Assembly: GCA_025060105.1 (NCBI GenBank)
Contig: JANXCS010000010.1
Location: forward strand, 1-53,413
Direction of reading: 5' to 3'
Origin: Pseudothermotoga sp.
Lineage (GTDB): Bacteria; Thermotogota; Thermotogae; Thermotogales; DSM-5069
Length of the DNA stretch: 53,413 nt
Of this stretch, positions 46,244 through 53,413 are shown one piece after another (the first letter of the stretch is position 1; each line of letters opens with the position of its first letter). Below the pieces are notes generated by a model, which was given only the letters and a program-made list of their open reading frames with translations, did no database searches and was not told where the DNA came from. The position numbers and the translations under genes are program-made.

Positions 46244-46264
46244 GGTCTCACCTTCGGTGAGATC
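46244..46264 (+). terminator. Possible hairpin at the his/acyltransferase junction
   Basis: GGTCTCACC (46244-46252), loop TTC, GGTGAGATC (46256-46264) form a 9-bp stem with one G-T pair. It overlaps the hisIE stop and is followed only by a weak T-run (TTT). It could act on both strands, but this is uncertain. Confidence 0.3.
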
Positions 46265-46850
46265 TTTCATGCCTGTCTTGAAGCTCTTCGATGATCTTGT
46301 CCCATTCAACGTTCTTCTCCACCATCAACACGGTTAAATGGTAGATCAAATCGGCCACCTCGCGAACGAAATGTTCTTCATCGTTCGATTTTGCAGCCAC
46401 GATCACCTCGATGGCCTCTTCACCGACCTTCTTCACTATCTCGTCCAGACCTTCTCTGAACAACTTCGCCGTGTAAGAGCTTTCAGGCGCTTTGGACTTT
46501 CTCTGCTGTACGATCCGAAGGAGTTTTTCAAGAAACTGAAGATCGTTCCTTCTTCCTTGGCCGTATATGGAACTGAAAAAACAGCTTCTGTTCCCCGTAT
46601 GGCACGCCACCTTTTCGAGCGGAAAATCTACAAGGTACAAAAGCGCATCTTTATCGCAATCTTCGAATATTTGCACCACGCGCATCGTGTTTCCAGACTC
46701 TTCACCTTTCTTCCAGATCTTTTGTCTCGATCTTGAATAAAAATGGGCAAAGCCTGTCTCTTTAGTCAAATTCAACGCTTCTTCGTCGGCGTAAGCGAGC
46801 ATCAAAACTTCTCCCGTGCGTGCCTCTTGAACCACCACAGGCCTCAGCAT
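46248..46850 (-). CDS. hisI: Bifunctional phosphoribosyl-AMP cyclohydrolase / phosphoribosyl-ATP pyrophosphatase
   Basis: HisIE does steps 2 and 3 of histidine synthesis. The N-terminal HisI half has [28 protein letters not shown] and the metal CHTGNRSCF; the C-terminal HisE half has [13 protein letters not shown] and [14 protein letters not shown], both standard. ATG 46850 lies in the end of hisF (7-base overlap) after GGAGGAAGGTGGATCG. The protein begins [20 protein letters not shown], so the usual 15-20-residue N-terminal stretch before 'vvQ...G.vLMlAy' is missing. Last gene of the operon. Confidence 0.94.
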
Positions 46851-47617
46851 GTCGATCCACCTTCCTCCAACCTGATCGGTACACCTTTCGACAGGAGATA
46901 TCTCTTCAGCTGGATCACGTTCATCTCCGAAAAATGAAAGATCGAGGCAGCCAAGGCGGCGTCCGCACCGGCTTCGAAGGCTTGAAGGAAATGTTCTTCC
47001 CTACCCGCACCACCTGAGGCGATGATGGGAATTTTCAAAACTTTTCTCGCCTGAGAAATCATCTCGATATCGAACCCTCCCTTAGTGCCGTCTTTATCGA
47101 TGCTTGTGAGCAGAACTTCACCTGCACCGAAATCTTGCACCAAAGAGAGCCAATCTTGCAGTCTCATCATGGTCCGCTTTTTCCCAGAAAGGACGAACAC
47201 TTCAAAACCGATTTCGGTCCTCTTCGCATCGACAGCAACCACCACGGCTTGGGAGCCGAACTTCGAAGCGATCTTCTCTATGAGTTTTGGATTTTCAACC
47301 GCTGAAGTGTTGATGCTCACCTTGTCCGCACCAGCGTAGATCAACTCGCTGGCCGTTTCGATGTCTCTCACACCTCCACCGATCGTGAAAGGAACATCGA
47401 TCTTTTCAGCCACTCTCTTGGCGACCTCGATCATCGTCCTTCGAGATTCCAACGATGCGGAAATGTCCAGAAAAACAAGTTCGTCCACACACTCTTGACA
47501 GTACTTTTCAGCCAACTTCACCGGATCGCCACCGTAGATCAAATTTTCGAACCGTTTACCTTTCACCACCACTCCATCCTTCACATCCAAACACGCGATG
47601 ATCCTTTTAGCGAGCAT
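46844..47617 (-). CDS. hisF: Imidazole glycerol phosphate synthase cyclase subunit
   Basis: A 257-residue (beta/alpha)8 barrel. The catalytic Asp appear in [12 protein letters not shown] (near residue 11) and VAVDAKR (near residue 130). Phosphate-binding GGGVRD and ASGGAG are present. It works with HisH, which supplies ammonia. ATG 47617 overlaps the end of hisA by 11 bases. Confidence 0.97.
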
Positions 47618-48332
47618 AACTTTTCATCTCCTCTAAGCTGATCCTTCCTTCGTAGAACGCTCTTCCCACGATGACACCTTCGATCGTTGGTGTTTCCCTG
47701 CAGAACTTTTCGATACGCTTCAGATCCTCCACCGAACCGATCCCACCGGCTATGTAGATCTTCAAACCTGAACTTGCCAGCTGTTTGGTCGATTCCAAAC
47801 TCCTTCCAGCGAGCGTGCCGTCGAGATCGACATCGGTGTGTATCAGTTCTTTCAAACCGAAACTCTTCAGCTTTTTCAGAAGCTGTACAACATCGATCCT
47901 CACACATTCCAGCCAACCTTTCGTTCTCACACCGAGCGAGGAAGTGTCCAAAGACAGAACCACCTCTATTCCGAGTGCCGTGAGCTTTGGAACGAGTTTT
48001 GGCTCTCTCAATAAGAGGGTGGAAAAGATCTGTCTTTTGAAACCAAGCTCTGAAAGCTTTCTTGCAACATCTATGTTCCTCAAACCTCCTCCGATCTGAA
48101 CGAACCTCGCCAAGCCGAGTTCAGCGATCCGTTTCAAGATCACTTCGTTCTGATTCGATTCGTCGATCGCTCTGGAAAGATCGATCAAATGCACCAATGT
48201 GAAGCCTTCATCCACGAACCGTTTCAACAGCTCCACAGGTTCAAAACCATAAACGTGGCAGCTTTCTTTGTTGCCCCTTTCGAGCCTCACCACGCGCCCC
48301 CTGTAGAGATCTATGGCTGGCACAACGCGCAC
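47607..48332 (-). CDS. hisA: ProFAR isomerase
   Basis: A 241-residue barrel related to His[19 protein letters not shown] contains the first catalytic Asp; the second is in [20 protein letters not shown] and [11 protein letters not shown] bind the phosphates. GTG 48332 follows AGGCTGATCGA and overlaps hisH by 22 bases. Confidence 0.96.
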
Positions 48333-48928
48333 TCGATCAGCCTCCTCAAAAACGTCCTGCCGACCGTGTGGCTCTTTTCTGGGTGGAACTGAACGCCGAT
48401 GAGTCTTTCATCCATCACCACGGCGGGGAAAACTTCCCCATCGTACTCGCAAGTTCCAACGATCAACCTTTCCTCACAAACGGCCCTGTAGGAATGTACA
48501 AAGTAAAAGTATTTCCCATCCATGTCTTTGAACCGCTCGAGATTGAATCGAACCGTGTTCCAGCCCATGTGTGGTAACAGCGTCGAGCTGAGCTTCACCA
48601 CTCGACCCTTCAAAAGGCCCAAACCTTTCATTCTGGTGGGACTTTCTTCACTCTCTTCGAAGAAAAGTTGCATGCCCAAACAAACGCCCACGATGGTCGC
48701 TCCGAGGTGATAGTTTTTGAAGATGAACCGATCCATCTTGCTTTCCACCAAGTTCTTCATGGCCTGTTCGAAATGACCAACCCCAGGTAGGAAGATGATT
48801 CTGTAGGTCTTATCGATCGGTTTTTCCAACAGCTCGAGCTCGAAGTTCAACTCGCCTTGGAGTTTTTTTAGAGCCCTGTAGAGGTTCATGATGTTTCCAG
48901 GCACACACGAAACGACGGCGACGTTCAA
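48311..48928 (-). CDS. hisH: Imidazole glycerol phosphate synthase glutaminase subunit
   Basis: Class I glutamine amidotransferase. The protein starts LNVAVVSCVPGNIMNLYRAL, has the nucleophile Cys in GVCLGMQLFFE and the His-Glu pair in QFHPEKS. TTG 48928 after AAGGGGATGATAGA overlaps the hisB stop (TTGA). The longer frame from 49009 lies inside hisB and is not needed. Length 205 residues, typical. Confidence 0.95.
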   Translation of the reverse strand: MNVAVVSCVPGNIMNLYRALKKLQGELNFELELLEKPIDKTYRIIFLPGVGHFEQAMKNLVESKMDRFIFKNYHLGATIVGVCLGMQLFFEESEESPTRMKGLGLLKGRVVKLSSTLLPHMGWNTVRFNLERFKDMDGKYFYFVHSYRAVCEERLIVGTCEYDGEVFPAVVMDERLIGVQFHPEKSHTVGRTFLRRLIECALCQP

Positions 48929-49521
48929 TCTATCATCCCCTTGGTGCTCTGTATCGATCCGCTTTCGTTGATCGCCGAGCGCAGGGCGATCGCGAAGGAT
49001 TTGAAACAAGCCTCGGCGATGTGGTGTGAATTTTTACCATAGAGCTGTACAAGATGCAGCGTGATCTTGGCGTTCGAAACAAAGCTTTTGAAGAATTCTT
49101 CGAACAACTCTATGGGAAATTCACCCACACGCTCGGTTTCGAATCGAACTTGATAGTTGAGAAACGGCCTTCCAGAAAGATCGATCGATGCGACGATCAA
49201 AGCTTCATCCATGGGAACTACGGCGTATCCGAACCTTGCAAGTTGAGAATAATCGAGCAGTTCTCTGAAGGCTGTACCGAGAACGATCCCAAAATCCTCC
49301 ACACCGTGGTGCAGATCGATCTGAGAATCCACCTCGAAGCTTTCCACCTTCAATGAGAGAGTAGAGAATTTGCAGAAGGTCTTCAGCATGTGATCGAAAA
49401 ATCCCATCCGCGTTGAGCCTGTGAACGTTCCTTCACCGTCGTTCTTCAACTCGATCCTTATGCAAGTTTCAGAGGTTTTTCTTTCAACCGAGCAGGCGTT
49501 GAACCTCTTTTCCACTAGCAT
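48925..49521 (-). CDS. hisB: Imidazoleglycerol-phosphate dehydratase
   Basis: Monofunctional IGPD (198 residues) without a HisN/phosphatase domain. The metal-binding motifs are FFDHMLKTF, DLHHGVEDFG and SHHIAEACFKSFA. ATG 49521 follows CTGGAGGGATTCAG within hisC's end. Histidinol-phosphatase activity must be encoded elsewhere. Confidence 0.96.
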   Translation of the reverse strand: MLVEKRFNACSVERKTSETCIRIELKNDGEGTFTGSTRMGFFDHMLKTFCKFSTLSLKVESFEVDSQIDLHHGVEDFGIVLGTAFRELLDYSQLARFGYAVVPMDEALIVASIDLSGRPFLNYQVRFETERVGEFPIELFEEFFKSFVSNAKITLHLVQLYGKNSHHIAEACFKSFAIALRSAINESGSIQSTKGMID

Positions 49522-50555
49522 CTGAATCCCTCCAGAATTTTCAAAACCAACTCGTTCTGTTCCGATGAACCTACACCGATCCTGATTCCAAATTCAGTCT
49601 TTCTGACAGCCACACCGTTTTCCAGAAAGAGCCGATGCATCCTTTCTTTCTCATCATCCTCCAGATAGATGAAAACGAAATTCGCCACAGAGTCGCTGAC
49701 TTTGAAGTTCATCCTGCGGAGTTTTTCTTTCAACCTCTCACGTTCTTGAACGATCCTTCGAACGCGCTCGAAAAAGATGTCTCTTTTGCTCAGGACCAAG
49801 CTCGCGAGCATCTGTGAAAGGTAGCTCACATTGTAAGGCAGTCTGATCCTATCGTAAGCGTCTATCAACTTCGAGCTTGCCACCATGTAACCTATCCTCT
49901 GTGAAGCCAAGCAGAAGGCCTTAGAGAAGGTCCTCACGACGATCAAGTTTTCGAACTCTTCAACGAAACTCACATAGCTTTTACCGCAAAAATCGTAGTA
50001 AGCTTCGTCCAGAACAACGAGTGAACCAGTTTTTAAAAGGAAAAAGATCTCTTCTTCTTCGAACAGATGTCCCGTGGGATTGTTCGGATTGGGCAAAAAC
50101 ACGACACAGTCTTGGCTCAAAACTTTCTTCAAAAATTTCAAGTTCAATCGCTCTCCAACCAGAGGAACTTTTCTCAACCTTACGCCCAGCGCCCTGGCGA
50201 AGATCTCATAGCAACTGTAGGTGGGAGGAAAAATGAAGATGCGAAGCTTTTTGAACATGTTCAACAGATTGTAGATGATCTCATCCGCACCGTTCCCGAT
50301 GCTTATCTGATCTACCCTGGCCTTCCAACGCTCCGTGGAGACGTATTCGGCGATTTGCTTCACAAGCTCTTCGCATGGGGAATCGAAATAGGTGCGCAGC
50401 GTCGCTGGATCTACCTTTTCGAAGAACTCTTTGAGCAGTCCTTCTGGGAAAGGATGGGGACTTTCGTTCAGTGCCAGATAAACTGGCGTTCTTTTCTCGC
50501 TCTTGTAAGCTTCAACATCTTTCCTGATCGATTCGACGATGTCTACGAAGCTCAT
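49515..50555 (-). CDS. hisC: Histidinol-phosphate aminotransferase
   Basis: The 346-residue PLP enzyme has ALNESPHPFP at the start, FLPNPNNPTG, VVLDEAYYDF and the PLP-lysine motif RTFSKAFCLASQRIGY. ATG 50555 follows GGAGGGATCGAG and overlaps hisD by 4 bases. Confidence 0.95.
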   Translation of the reverse strand: MSFVDIVESIRKDVEAYKSEKRTPVYLALNESPHPFPEGLLKEFFEKVDPATLRTYFDSPCEELVKQIAEYVSTERWKARVDQISIGNGADEIIYNLLNMFKKLRIFIFPPTYSCYEIFARALGVRLRKVPLVGERLNLKFLKKVLSQDCVVFLPNPNNPTGHLFEEEEIFFLLKTGSLVVLDEAYYDFCGKSYVSFVEEFENLIVVRTFSKAFCLASQRIGYMVASSKLIDAYDRIRLPYNVSYLSQMLASLVLSKRDIFFERVRRIVQERERLKEKLRRMNFKVSDSVANFVFIYLEDDEKERMHRLFLENGVAVRKTEFGIRIGVGSSEQNELVLKILEGFRC

Positions 50556-51841
50556 CTCGATCCCTCCAGCCTCACTTCGATCGATCTCGCGTGCGCTTCG
50601 AATCCTTCAAGCCTCGCCAGAGAGGCGTACCAAGCCCCTCTCTGCCTGACTTCCTCTTCGCTGACTTGGGTTACGAAGATTTTTTTCAAAAAATCTTGGA
50701 CCGTCAGACCTGAAGAGAACCTCGAAGCGGTGGAAGTGGGAAGCACGTGGTTTGGACCGATCCCATAATCACCGAAGGCTTCCGCAGAAAAGCTTCCCAG
50801 AAAGATCGAACCGGCACTCTTCACATCGCTCAACAGCGACCAAGGATCTTTCGTCATCAACTGCAGATGTTCCGGTGAAAAGATGTTGGAAATCTTCACC
50901 GCATCTTTGATATCTTTCACCAAGATCGCCAAGCCGTTGCGTTCCAAACAGCTCCGTGCGGTGGACCTGGCCGGTTCATCCAGCTCGCTCAGCTGTTTCG
51001 AAAGTTCTTCCATCGTTCCATCCAACAGATCTTCATCGTTCGTGATCAGGCAAACTGTGGCATTTTCATCGTGTTCGGCTTGAGCGAGCATGTCTGATGC
51101 TACGAATCTGGCCTTCGCCAAGCCGTCCGCAACGATCAAAAGCTCCGTAGGGCCAGCGATGGAATCTATCCCACAATCTCCCACGATCAACCTTTTCGCA
51201 CAGCTCACATAAATGTTTCCAGGCCCAACGATCTTGTCCACTCTCTTCACGATCTCTGTTCCGTAAGCCAGTGCGCTGATCGCGTGCGCCCCACCCATCT
51301 TGTAGATCTCTTCTATACCGAGCCTTCGACAGAGGTATAGAACATACGGAGAGATCTTTCCATCTTCCATGGCGGAGCATGCGACCACGATCCTCTCCAC
51401 ACCTGCGATTTTGGCTGGAACTGCACACATGATGAGGGTGGAAAAATAAACCTTCTTCCCAGCAGGTACGTAGATCGCCACACTCTCGATCGGCTTCACC
51501 AAATATGCGGTGAAACTACCAAACTCGTTCACACGCCAGATGGAACGCTCCAAATGGAGAGAATGGAACTTTTCAACTCTTTCGATGAATTCCTCGCACG
51601 CTCGTTCGAACCGCTCGTCCACTCGGACCGATTCGAGCTCTTGTTTCGACACAACGATCTGTTCCTTTTTCAAAGCGCACCTTTCGTACATGGCGATGTA
51701 CTTTTCTAACGCCACTTGACCGTTCTTTTTCACATCCTCAACGATGCTTTTCACGTTCTGTTCGAGTTGAGAAAGTTCGAACCTTCTTTTTTGAACGATT
51801 TTTTCAATCTGCTCACAGGTTGGCTCGATGAGCACCTTCAT
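50552..51841 (-). CDS. hisD: Histidinol dehydrogenase
   Basis: The 429-residue NAD-dependent, zinc enzyme performs the last two steps. Landmarks are YVPAGKKVYFSTLIM, KIVGPGNIYV, DSIAGPTELLIVAD (with the substrate-binding region), AQAEHDENA, EHLQL and IGPNHVLPTS (zinc and substrate His). ATG 51841 overlaps the hisG stop by 4 bases. Confidence 0.97.
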   Translation of the reverse strand: MKVLIEPTCEQIEKIVQKRRFELSQLEQNVKSIVEDVKKNGQVALEKYIAMYERCALKKEQIVVSKQELESVRVDERFERACEEFIERVEKFHSLHLERSIWRVNEFGSFTAYLVKPIESVAIYVPAGKKVYFSTLIMCAVPAKIAGVERIVVACSAMEDGKISPYVLYLCRRLGIEEIYKMGGAHAISALAYGTEIVKRVDKIVGPGNIYVSCAKRLIVGDCGIDSIAGPTELLIVADGLAKARFVASDMLAQAEHDENATVCLITNDEDLLDGTMEELSKQLSELDEPARSTARSCLERNGLAILVKDIKDAVKISNIFSPEHLQLMTKDPWSLLSDVKSAGSIFLGSFSAEAFGDYGIGPNHVLPTSTASRFSSGLTVQDFLKKIFVTQVSEEEVRQRGAWYASLARLEGFEAHARSIEVRLEGSR

Positions 51842-52452
51842 CCTTTCATCCCCCTCGAAAGACTTTCAAGAAAATTCAAAATCTCATCCCTTTTGGTGCG
51901 GTAAGAAACCTCGTTGAGCGTGACGATCGCGCTGATGGGATAGATCTCATCGAGAATCGAAAGCCCGTTCTCTTTCAGCGTCCTACCGGTTTGAACTATG
52001 TCCACGATCAGTTCGGCCAACCCCACCAAGGGCGCCAGTTCCACCGAACCGTGCAGTTTGATGATCTTCACATCGAGCTTCTTCGCATCGAAGTACATCT
52101 TCGTGCTCACGGGGAACTTGGTGGCGACGCTGAGAACACCATTTTTAGGTTTGAAACCTTCAAACCCTGCGAGCACCATTCTGCTCTTGCCGAAAGGTAA
52201 TTTCATAGGTTGAATGAGTTTTAGCTGAGATTCAACGATCGAGTCTGTTCCACAGATGCCCACATCGGCGATACCGCTGAACACGTAGGTTGGAACGTCT
52301 AAAGGTTTGACGATGAAGATCTGCATCGTTCCTTTCAAATCCTCCACGACGAGAGATCTTTCTGTTGCTTCTTTGAAGGTATAACCACACCCTTTCAGAA
52401 ACGAAAACGCTTCCTCTTCGAGCCTTCCCTTCGCCAGAGCTAGTTTGACCAT
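51838..52452 (-). CDS. hisG: ATP phosphoribosyltransferase, short form (catalytic)
   Basis: The 204-residue short HisG lacks the C-terminal regulatory domain; such enzymes need HisZ, encoded just upstream. Substrate-binding parts are ALAKGRLEEEA, GIADVGICGTDSIVE and the PRPP-binding DIVQTGRTLKENG. ATG 52452 follows CTGGAGGAGAGAAC inside hisZ. Confidence 0.96.
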   Translation of the reverse strand: MVKLALAKGRLEEEAFSFLKGCGYTFKEATERSLVVEDLKGTMQIFIVKPLDVPTYVFSGIADVGICGTDSIVESQLKLIQPMKLPFGKSRMVLAGFEGFKPKNGVLSVATKFPVSTKMYFDAKKLDVKIIKLHGSVELAPLVGLAELIVDIVQTGRTLKENGLSILDEIYPISAIVTLNEVSYRTKRDEILNFLESLSRGMKG

Positions 52453-53285
52453 GTTCTCTCCTCCAGAAAGATCGTTCCTCCGACGGCCAGAACATTCTCG
52501 TTCACCTTGTACCTGCCTCCAGCGGCTATGAGCAGTGAATTTTTAAGATCGAACATCGTGAACGTGGGACCATCGTACTCTTCGATCGTTCTGGCTATGG
52601 AAAAATCCAACTCCACGGTGATATGAGAAAACTTCGAAAGAAAATCGACCGTTCGAACGATCTCGGCTTCTATCGTCGAATCGAGTGGAAAATCTTTCAA
52701 TCCGTCCACACCCCTTTTGGTGAAACTGTTCTCGACCAACTTCACCACGTTCGAAAGATCCAGACCGTGCAGAGAAGCGAAGAACTCTATCTCCGACACA
52801 TCTTTTCTGTCTATGAGCTCAAAGAGCTGTTTTCTGAACTTTCTAGGTACATGTTGCACACACTTTTCTATCACTCTAGAATCACCGATCTCCACCAAGA
52901 GCCGGTCCGTCAAGGACGAAAGAACCGTTTCGATGAGCAGTTGCAGAACAAGCTCGAGATCTTTCAACGATGAAAAGGGGATGATCTCCACACCCAGTTG
53001 GAACTTCGGTCGGACCTCACCGGAATGATCGTATCGATAGACGAAACCTGTATACCAAACTCTGAACCTTTCCAGCTGGAGCTTGTTGAAATACTCCACG
53101 ATCGAAGCGGTGTAATCGTTCCTGAGCTTGAACAGCTCACCGTTCCTAGCTTGGAAAAAGATCCAGTCTTTCTCCAATTTTGACAGATCCTTCAGAGCTT
53201 CCACCTCTGGACTCAAAAACAACTCAAAATCGTTTTCGTAGCACTTTTCCACGAACGTCTTCACAAGCTTTTCGATCCTTCTCAA
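52440..53285 (-). CDS. hisZ: ATP phosphoribosyltransferase regulatory subunit HisZ
   Basis: HisZ is a histidyl-tRNA-synthetase relative that activates short HisG and senses histidine. The 281-residue protein has the motif-2 arginine loop region FVYRYDHSGEVRPKFQLGVE and a motif-3-like AAGGRYKVNENVLAVGG, but lacks the anticodon-binding domain of true HisRS. I place the start at TTG 53285, 7 bases after AGGAGGT. The GTG at 53291 lies 1 base or less from the Shine-Dalgarno sequence. It is the first gene of the operon, preceded by the attenuator. Confidence 0.92.
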   Translation of the reverse strand: MRRIEKLVKTFVEKCYENDFELFLSPEVEALKDLSKLEKDWIFFQARNGELFKLRNDYTASIVEYFNKLQLERFRVWYTGFVYRYDHSGEVRPKFQLGVEIIPFSSLKDLELVLQLLIETVLSSLTDRLLVEIGDSRVIEKCVQHVPRKFRKQLFELIDRKDVSEIEFFASLHGLDLSNVVKLVENSFTKRGVDGLKDFPLDSTIEAEIVRTVDFLSKFSHITVELDFSIARTIEEYDGPTFTMFDLKNSLLIAAGGRYKVNENVLAVGGTIFLEERTWSN

Positions 53286-53301
53286 AGGCACACCTCCTAA
53301 T

Positions 53302-53333
53302 AAAAAAGGGTCACACCCTTTCGGATGTGACCC
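53302..53333 (-). terminator. his attenuator terminator
   Basis: On the minus strand GGGTCACATCC (53323-53333), a GAAA tetraloop, GGGTGTGACCC (53308-53318), then six U (53302-53307). The stem is 11 bp with one T-G pair. Its 5' arm shares 5 bases with the antiterminator arm. Confidence 0.9.
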
Positions 53334-53404
53334 GGTAGTTTCCTTTCATCCCACCATCACGTAACACCCGGTGGTGAAACTACCGGGTCAAACACGTGAT
53401 GGTG
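53302..53404 (-). promoter_or_regulatory. Ribosome-mediated histidine attenuator
   Basis: The leader on the minus strand has: an 11-bp outer stem between 53394-53404 (within the His codons) and 53352-53362; an inner 7-bp stem 53382-53388 with 53366-53372; a perfect 14-bp antiterminator pairing 53376-53389 with 53329-53342; and the terminator above. The antiterminator and terminator exclude each other (shared 53329-53333), as do the outer compound stem and the antiterminator. A ribosome stalled on the His codons would mask the outer arm and free 53376-53389 to pair, allowing read-through into hisZ. Free energies were not computed. No T-box motif is seen. Confidence 0.85.
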
Positions 53405-53413
53405 ATGAACAAC
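53357..53413 (-). CDS. his leader peptide (5' end outside window)
   Basis: The readable end is VVHHHHVFDPVVSPPGVT, then TGA at 53357-53359. The four His codons (CAT CAC CAT CAC) occupy 53396-53407. The start codon lies beyond the window edge, so its length and Shine-Dalgarno sequence cannot be seen. The frame is inferred from the His run; the other two frames close after 6-9 codons. Confidence 0.75.
   Translation of the reverse strand, partial: VVHHHHVFDPVVSPPGVT

Follow-up and report, generated by a model that had tools for sequence, protein, structure and literature searches.

Ribosome-mediated attenuation of amino-acid operons is a form of regulation taught from enteric bacteria. In the hisL leader of E. 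coli and Salmonella (RF00514), a run of His codons within a short leader ORF is combined with alternative hairpins and a U-tailed terminator that lies directly before the his operon. There are 7 His codons in hisL, and the E. coli ORF stops two codons after them, before the second arm, a geometry in which a ribosome parked at the stop masks that arm. The E. coli leuL leader (MTHIVRFIGLLLLNASSLRGRRVSGIQH and stop, compared here from its annotated record) has its regulatory codons in the middle of an ORF that runs on through the complementary arm. His-leader attenuators have also been predicted in Firmicutes, namely in the Bacillus cereus group, Peptostreptococcaceae and Erysipelotrichales (PMC9413887, PMC2965389), and by description these share with the element reported below 3-5 consecutive His codons and terminator/antiterminator hairpins before the his operon or hisZ. 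The main text of these two papers makes no mention of Thermotoga or Thermotogae. A survey by Sun et al. 2013 (PMC3766115) applied Rfam models of His, Trp, Thr and Leu leaders to taxonomic groups that included the Thermotogales and concluded that gamma-proteobacteria may be where such motifs arose, horizontal transfer having been very rare; the sensed amino acids that it names are limited to His, Leu, Thr, Trp, Ile/Val and Phe. The main text of the T. maritima genome-organisation paper (PMC3636130) mentions neither attenuation nor histidine. We found no description of leader-peptide attenuators in Thermotogota in the open literature. Lopatovskaya et al. 2010, which reportedly lists Thermotogae among the groups with predicted attenuation, may overlap with the present work. 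We claim no priority for the Thermotogota his attenuator, which may already have been predicted.

The element considered here lies at the end of a 53,413-nucleotide stretch from Pseudothermotoga sp. (contig JANXCS010000010.1; the window, by which we mean the whole stretch of DNA analysed). From 53413 to 53302 the minus strand reads GTTGTT CATCACCATCAC GTGTTT GACCCGGTAGTTTC AC CACCGGG TGTT ACGTGATGGTG ... GAAACTACCGGGTC ACATCC GAAA GGGTGTGACCC TTTTTT, followed by the hisZ Shine-Dalgarno sequence. An earlier note, made from the letters alone, had described a run of four His codons together with three alternative RNA structures: a compound stem of 11+7 bp, an antiterminator of 14 perfect pairs, and an 11-bp terminator that ends in six U. 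All of these are present at the lengths claimed. The features of the leader and of the operon behind it are:

53396-53407, minus strand: four regulatory His codons, CAT CAC CAT CAC (CATCACCATCAC), matched by 3-4 His codons in the corresponding position of the 13 aligned leaders
53357-53413, minus strand: in-window portion of the leader-peptide ORF, with its UGA stop at 53359-53357, inside A'
53394-53404, minus strand: arm A, which holds His codons and forms 11 bp with A' in the terminator-permitting fold
53376-53389, minus strand: arm B (GACCCGGTAGTTTC), which by folding and covariation has b' (local) or C (antiterminator) as alternative partners
53367-53373, minus strand: arm b', which encodes Pro-Pro-Gly and forms the inner 7-bp stem with B in the fold
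53352-53362, minus strand: arm A', the complement of the His-codon arm A, with the leader stop codon within it
53329-53342, minus strand: arm C (GAAACTACCGGGTC), the 3' arm of the antiterminator, with 14 perfect pairs to B
53302-53333, minus strand: intrinsic terminator, by folding and covariation, with an 11-bp stem (GGGTCACATCC/GGGTGTGACCC), a GAAA loop and six U (53307-53302)
52440-53285, minus strand: hisZ, the first structural gene (NCBIfam match below the curated cut-off)
46248-52452, minus strand: hisG, hisD, hisC, hisB, hisH, hisA, hisF and hisI(E), the remainder of the regulated operon (NCBIfam matches)

The interlocking of these parts that the earlier note had emphasized is borne out, since the His codons lie in arm A and the five bases GGGTC (53333-53329) serve both as the end of C and as the start of the terminator, whose stem pairs 53333-53323 with 53318-53308. 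In the antiterminator fold, the CCACC of b' can alternatively pair with the GGTGG of A'. Folding was computed at 37 C, although the organisms are thermophiles. The window segment reached -58 kcal/mol, whereas its dinucleotide-shuffled versions averaged -33.4 +/- 3.5 (z -7.0, none of 200 shuffles as good); the full leader gave z -5.4. As had been proposed, the leader stands directly before hisZ of a his operon, which NCBIfam matches resolve into nine genes in the order hisZGDCBHAFI(E). The likelier start of hisZ, judged from sequence context, is the TTG at 53285 rather than the listed GTG at 53291, because the Shine-Dalgarno sequence AGGAGG lies seven bases before it and relatives have TTG at the same place.

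The start of the leader ORF was invisible to the earlier reader because the window stops at a scaffold gap with a 77-base overlap. Here 10 N are followed by the last 77 bases repeated (G000:C10:53424-53500), in what looks like an assembler overlap, and then by new sequence. Past this edge the His frame is not closed: it is open back to GTGAAGGTCGTGAATGGC, in which the second GTG has a well-placed Shine-Dalgarno sequence, AGGTGA. The leader peptide read from this in-frame GTG, about 31-33 nt beyond the window edge, is MNGVGLFGILSVVHHHHVFDPVVSPPGVT followed by a stop, 29 codons in all. Just upstream of the start is a sigma-70 promoter, TTGTCA-17 nt-TATGAT, with a 10/12 match and a TG before the -10 (L004 383-355, minus strand), which leaves a very short 5' UTR. 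The start codon, ribosome-binding site and promoter that the earlier note had suggested seeking beyond the edge are all found there.

The assembly graph forks at the leader. A second contig (G000:C17:1-77, L005) opens with the same 77 bases, corresponding to 53337-53413 of the window. Its promoter and leader match those of the C10 copy (L004) except at three bases: one change lies before the start codon, one is Val-to-Ile and one is silent. The two contigs diverge upstream of the -35, with an AAA ATPase gene on C10, and on C17 a nagA-like gene and a pair made up of an AAA/OLD-type ATPase and DUF3226/TOPRIM. These two upstream versions represent either a strain mixture or a second copy.

Conservation was evaluated in 45 genomes of the order Thermotogales, 15 of which contain a clear hisZ. 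The leader precedes hisZ in all 15 of these operons with His codons, arms and terminator kept, and a 16th leader was found in one genome outside the Thermotogales (L073). Within the genus the leader peptides read HHHVFDPVA[FS]PPGV[TA] before the stop. Family f3 has HHHHRFGPAVSPPGVWR, HHHHRAGPAVSPPGA and similar peptides, each ending in a stop, and in two of these leaders one His is replaced, by Cys (L016) or by Phe (L017); family f2 has HHHQNAPGVTPPG[SL]F and stop. Genome G046, outside the order and in another family, has IHHHNRFCPAGIFLPGFAV and stop before hisZ, and family f10 has a differently worded leader before hisZ, HHHTWRGRVNTCHVCC, with alternative pairing of the same kind. All 13 aligned leaders keep an identical spacing of 18 nt between the first aligned His codon and arm B. 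An apparent absence of the leader in G035 and G038 was rejected, as the leader is present in both and a TnpB-like insertion intervenes before hisZ. In these two Thermotoga-like f3 genomes the insertion (G035:C1:1059138-1060562, L050; contig ends C9/C10 in G038), whose zinc-ribbon sequence places it in the IS605 family, separates the his terminator from hisZ and leaves an intact attenuator about 1.4 kb away from the operon.

The MAFFT alignment of these leaders (A1), in which A' is out of register in some families, was used to score the terminator and the antiterminator. The ten pairs of the terminator helix are paired in 100% of cells in all sequences, three of the pairs are changed on both sides, and 15 cells have both-side changes compared with 0 when the partner is slid by 1-3 columns. 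For the first six pairs of the antiterminator, 97% of cells are paired and 7 are changed on both sides, again compared with 0 when slid. The outer antiterminator covaries within the genus, from AGT:ACT to AGC:GCT and from TTTCC:GGAAG to TTCTC:GAGAG. Relatives thus carry the codons, the complementary arms and compensatory changes in both helices, the comparison by which the earlier note had proposed to check its reading. Column 104 of A1 takes part in both helices, and its partners in B and in the terminator change in step with it (A-U-A in f1, G-C-G in f3 and C-G-C in f2). Such covariation at a shared base is strong evidence for two mutually exclusive helices; the three family-level states amount to few independent events, yet little besides two competing helices fits them. 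The parts of the element, its exclusive helices as seen by covariation, and the conservation of leader and codons are established here.

To extend the comparison, two covariance models were run over 103 Thermotogota genomes, one built from his leaders only and the second widened with the hits of the first. Lysine codons appear in family f8 as LENKKYVKQPPGGAEV and stop before dapF-dapA (L091, L101, L103) and as KK-rich leaders before the aspartokinase gene lysC (L081, L095), and the terminators of these f8 lys leaders are almost identical to those of f3 his leaders. Arginine leaders, which carry RRR or RKR and occur in f1, f9 and f10, contain IRRR before argG (L158, L160, L162) and NNRRR before argJ (L163, L168). 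Met-codon leaders of the MIM type, often with Cys, precede metH operons with a methionine synthase gene (metH/homocysteine methyltransferase type; L087, L159, L161), metQ (L102) and a gene whose protein has no Pfam match (L104). A leader ending NWWWHL before its stop precedes trpE (L157, G096:C47), and Arg/His or Lys/His leaders precede amino-acid transporters. NCBIfam supports the assignments of trpE, argG, argJ, methionine synthase, metQ, dapA, dapF, aspartate kinase, citrate synthase and a Lys/Arg/ornithine-type binding protein. The model seeded with his leaders was blind to downstream genes, and yet its hits include leaders with codons suited to the pathway encoded behind them, which supports the attenuator reading. 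Two hits, L105 and L170, are suspected false positives of the covariance models.

A simple test of the antiterminator duplex against shuffled upstream sequence was significant in 12 of 12 tested his leaders of the window type, of which one comes from G046 and the other 11 from the order. It was also significant in most of the leaders with Lys codons, with Arg codons before argG, and before metH. It was not significant for trpE L157, argJ L163 and L168, Met L102, L104 and L161 or f10 L143, and was borderline for L078; it is uninformative for L161, where a different hairpin was picked, and for L081 and L083, where no hairpin was picked. The trpE, argJ and some of the Met attenuators are leads, not results.

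Two further groups of hits were observed. In f8, leaders rich in Val, Ile and Leu codons (VVYIVLILPAGG) stand before an amidohydrolase gene (L096, L098, L151, L153, L155). One f10 genus has NNQPEP leaders before citrate synthase (L086, L094, L099, L165, L166), which possibly sense Gln, Glu or Pro.

The likeness to known systems clarifies in which sense the his element is a classical attenuator, as the earlier note had called it. The ribosome-mediated reading stands, and the enteric-his geometry does not. The Thermotogota leaders have 3-4 His codons compared with 7 in hisL, and their ORF, unlike that of E. coli hisL, continues through B and b' into A'; in the window leader no stop codon follows the His codons ahead of the second arm, where a parked ribosome would mask that arm. 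Because the ORF runs through arm B into A', the geometry is leu-like rather than enteric-his-like, although leuL has Leu instead of His codons, belongs to a different operon and has no sequence relation to the Thermotogota leader.

We conclude, with a probability of about 0.94, that the element controls transcription of the his operon by ribosome-mediated attenuation and senses histidine shortage. What we infer beyond the sequences is that the ribosome stalls, when it is released and the RNA refolds, and that the operon responds to histidine, as follows. When charged tRNA-His is scarce, a ribosome would stall on the His codons and mask arm A; A' could then not pair with A, and B would be free to pair with C once C is transcribed. 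The B:C helix would remove five bases from the terminator, and RNA polymerase would continue into hisZGDCBHAFI(E). When histidine is plentiful, the ribosome would pass B to the UGA in A' and be released, upon which A:A' and B:b' would pair again before all of C has been transcribed, and the terminator would form. Without translation A:A' would form first, and transcription would also terminate.

This scheme was modelled with a ribosome taken to cover 13 nt on the 5' side of its P site, and with truncated nascent RNA instead of the full-length leader, because the long terminator wins in many full-length states. When A is covered and the 3' arm of the terminator is still to be transcribed, all 13 leaders have the antiterminator as their minimum-energy fold. 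The prediction that a ribosome at the first His codon leaves the antiterminator arm free holds in the truncated-RNA model for an A site at His codons 1-3, with B free and an antiterminator probability of 1.00; at His codon 4 the ribosome begins to cover B, and this probability is 0.18-0.40. The companion prediction, that a ribosome reaching the stop codon would cover the same arm, fails: UGA lies inside A', 16 nt beyond B, and a ribosome there covers b' and A' and none of B, with a modelled antiterminator probability near 1 in 13 of 13 leaders. The off-state must therefore come from prompt release and refolding of A:A' and B:b'. Folded at full length and at equilibrium, only some leaders clearly favour the antiterminator when a ribosome occupies the first His codon, so that the mechanism needs cotranscriptional kinetics. 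The truncated, ribosome-free RNA of several relatives likewise favours the antiterminator at equilibrium, and the off-state without translation therefore depends on A:A' forming first.

Other forms of control could use similar parts. In a T-box or other riboswitch, uncharged tRNA-His or histidine would bind the RNA directly and the short ORF would be incidental; the T-box layout is likewise a terminator and antiterminator before an amino-acid operon, and his genes in some Firmicutes are under T-box control (PMC9413887). We regard this as extremely improbable for a leader of about 110 nt with no large aptamer domain, in which ORF, Shine-Dalgarno sequence and His codons are conserved and whose relatives shift in codon identity with the downstream pathway. 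An Rfam search of the leader returned no family at the gathering score, neither T-box nor RF00514, and none of its three weak matches was a T-box; a weak STnc390 match (21 bits against a cut-off of 50) was rejected, as it covers the terminator hairpin only. The terminator and antiterminator alone would also suit a protein-binding attenuator of the TRAP or HutP kind, or a plain terminator/readthrough element blind to translation, but either would leave unexplained the conserved His codons at fixed spacing, the conserved Shine-Dalgarno sequence and start, and the pathway-matched codons of the sister elements, and control of this kind appears highly improbable.

A variant that keeps the attenuator and changes only its off-state is harder to dismiss, though still rather unlikely. 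Here the ribosome would pause at the conserved Pro-Pro-Gly codons and partly cover B, instead of being released at the stop. PPG is present in 13 of 13 aligned leaders, and the distance from the start of B to its second Pro codon is exactly 18 nt in each. When this codon occupies the P site, the ribosome masks the 3' portion of B, and the modelled antiterminator probability drops to 0.02-0.94 in seven leaders. In the remaining six, all of family f3, the probability nevertheless stays at 0.99-1.00, and the f10 his leaders (HHHTWRGR...) lack PPG. The motif is also explicable by RNA pairing alone, as CCACC is needed for the GGTGG of A' in the antiterminator and CCGG for B. We therefore retain release at the stop codon, followed by refolding, as the preferred route to termination in this attenuator.

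The Thermotogota elements are invisible to the Rfam models used in PMC3766115. Taken across the phylum, they probably constitute one family of leader-peptide attenuators of a single design, with codons in A, B paired to b' or to C, and a terminator overlapping C, in which codons have been exchanged per pathway. The f3 his and f8 lys leaders have nearly the same terminator and look homologous, so that a single ancestral cassette may have changed its specificity when its codons were replaced. Attenuation conserved in the thermophilic Thermotogota, in the his operon and apparently also in the lys, arg and met pathways, would make this form of regulation older, or more often invented, than thought. 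Leader-peptide attenuators for Lys, Arg and Met would extend the list of amino acids sensed through leader peptides given in PMC3766115. The naturally varied leaders also provide material for testing the coupling of codon identity, ribosome release and terminator choice at high temperature, and this phylum-wide re-coded set is the more interesting part of the finding than the his element alone.
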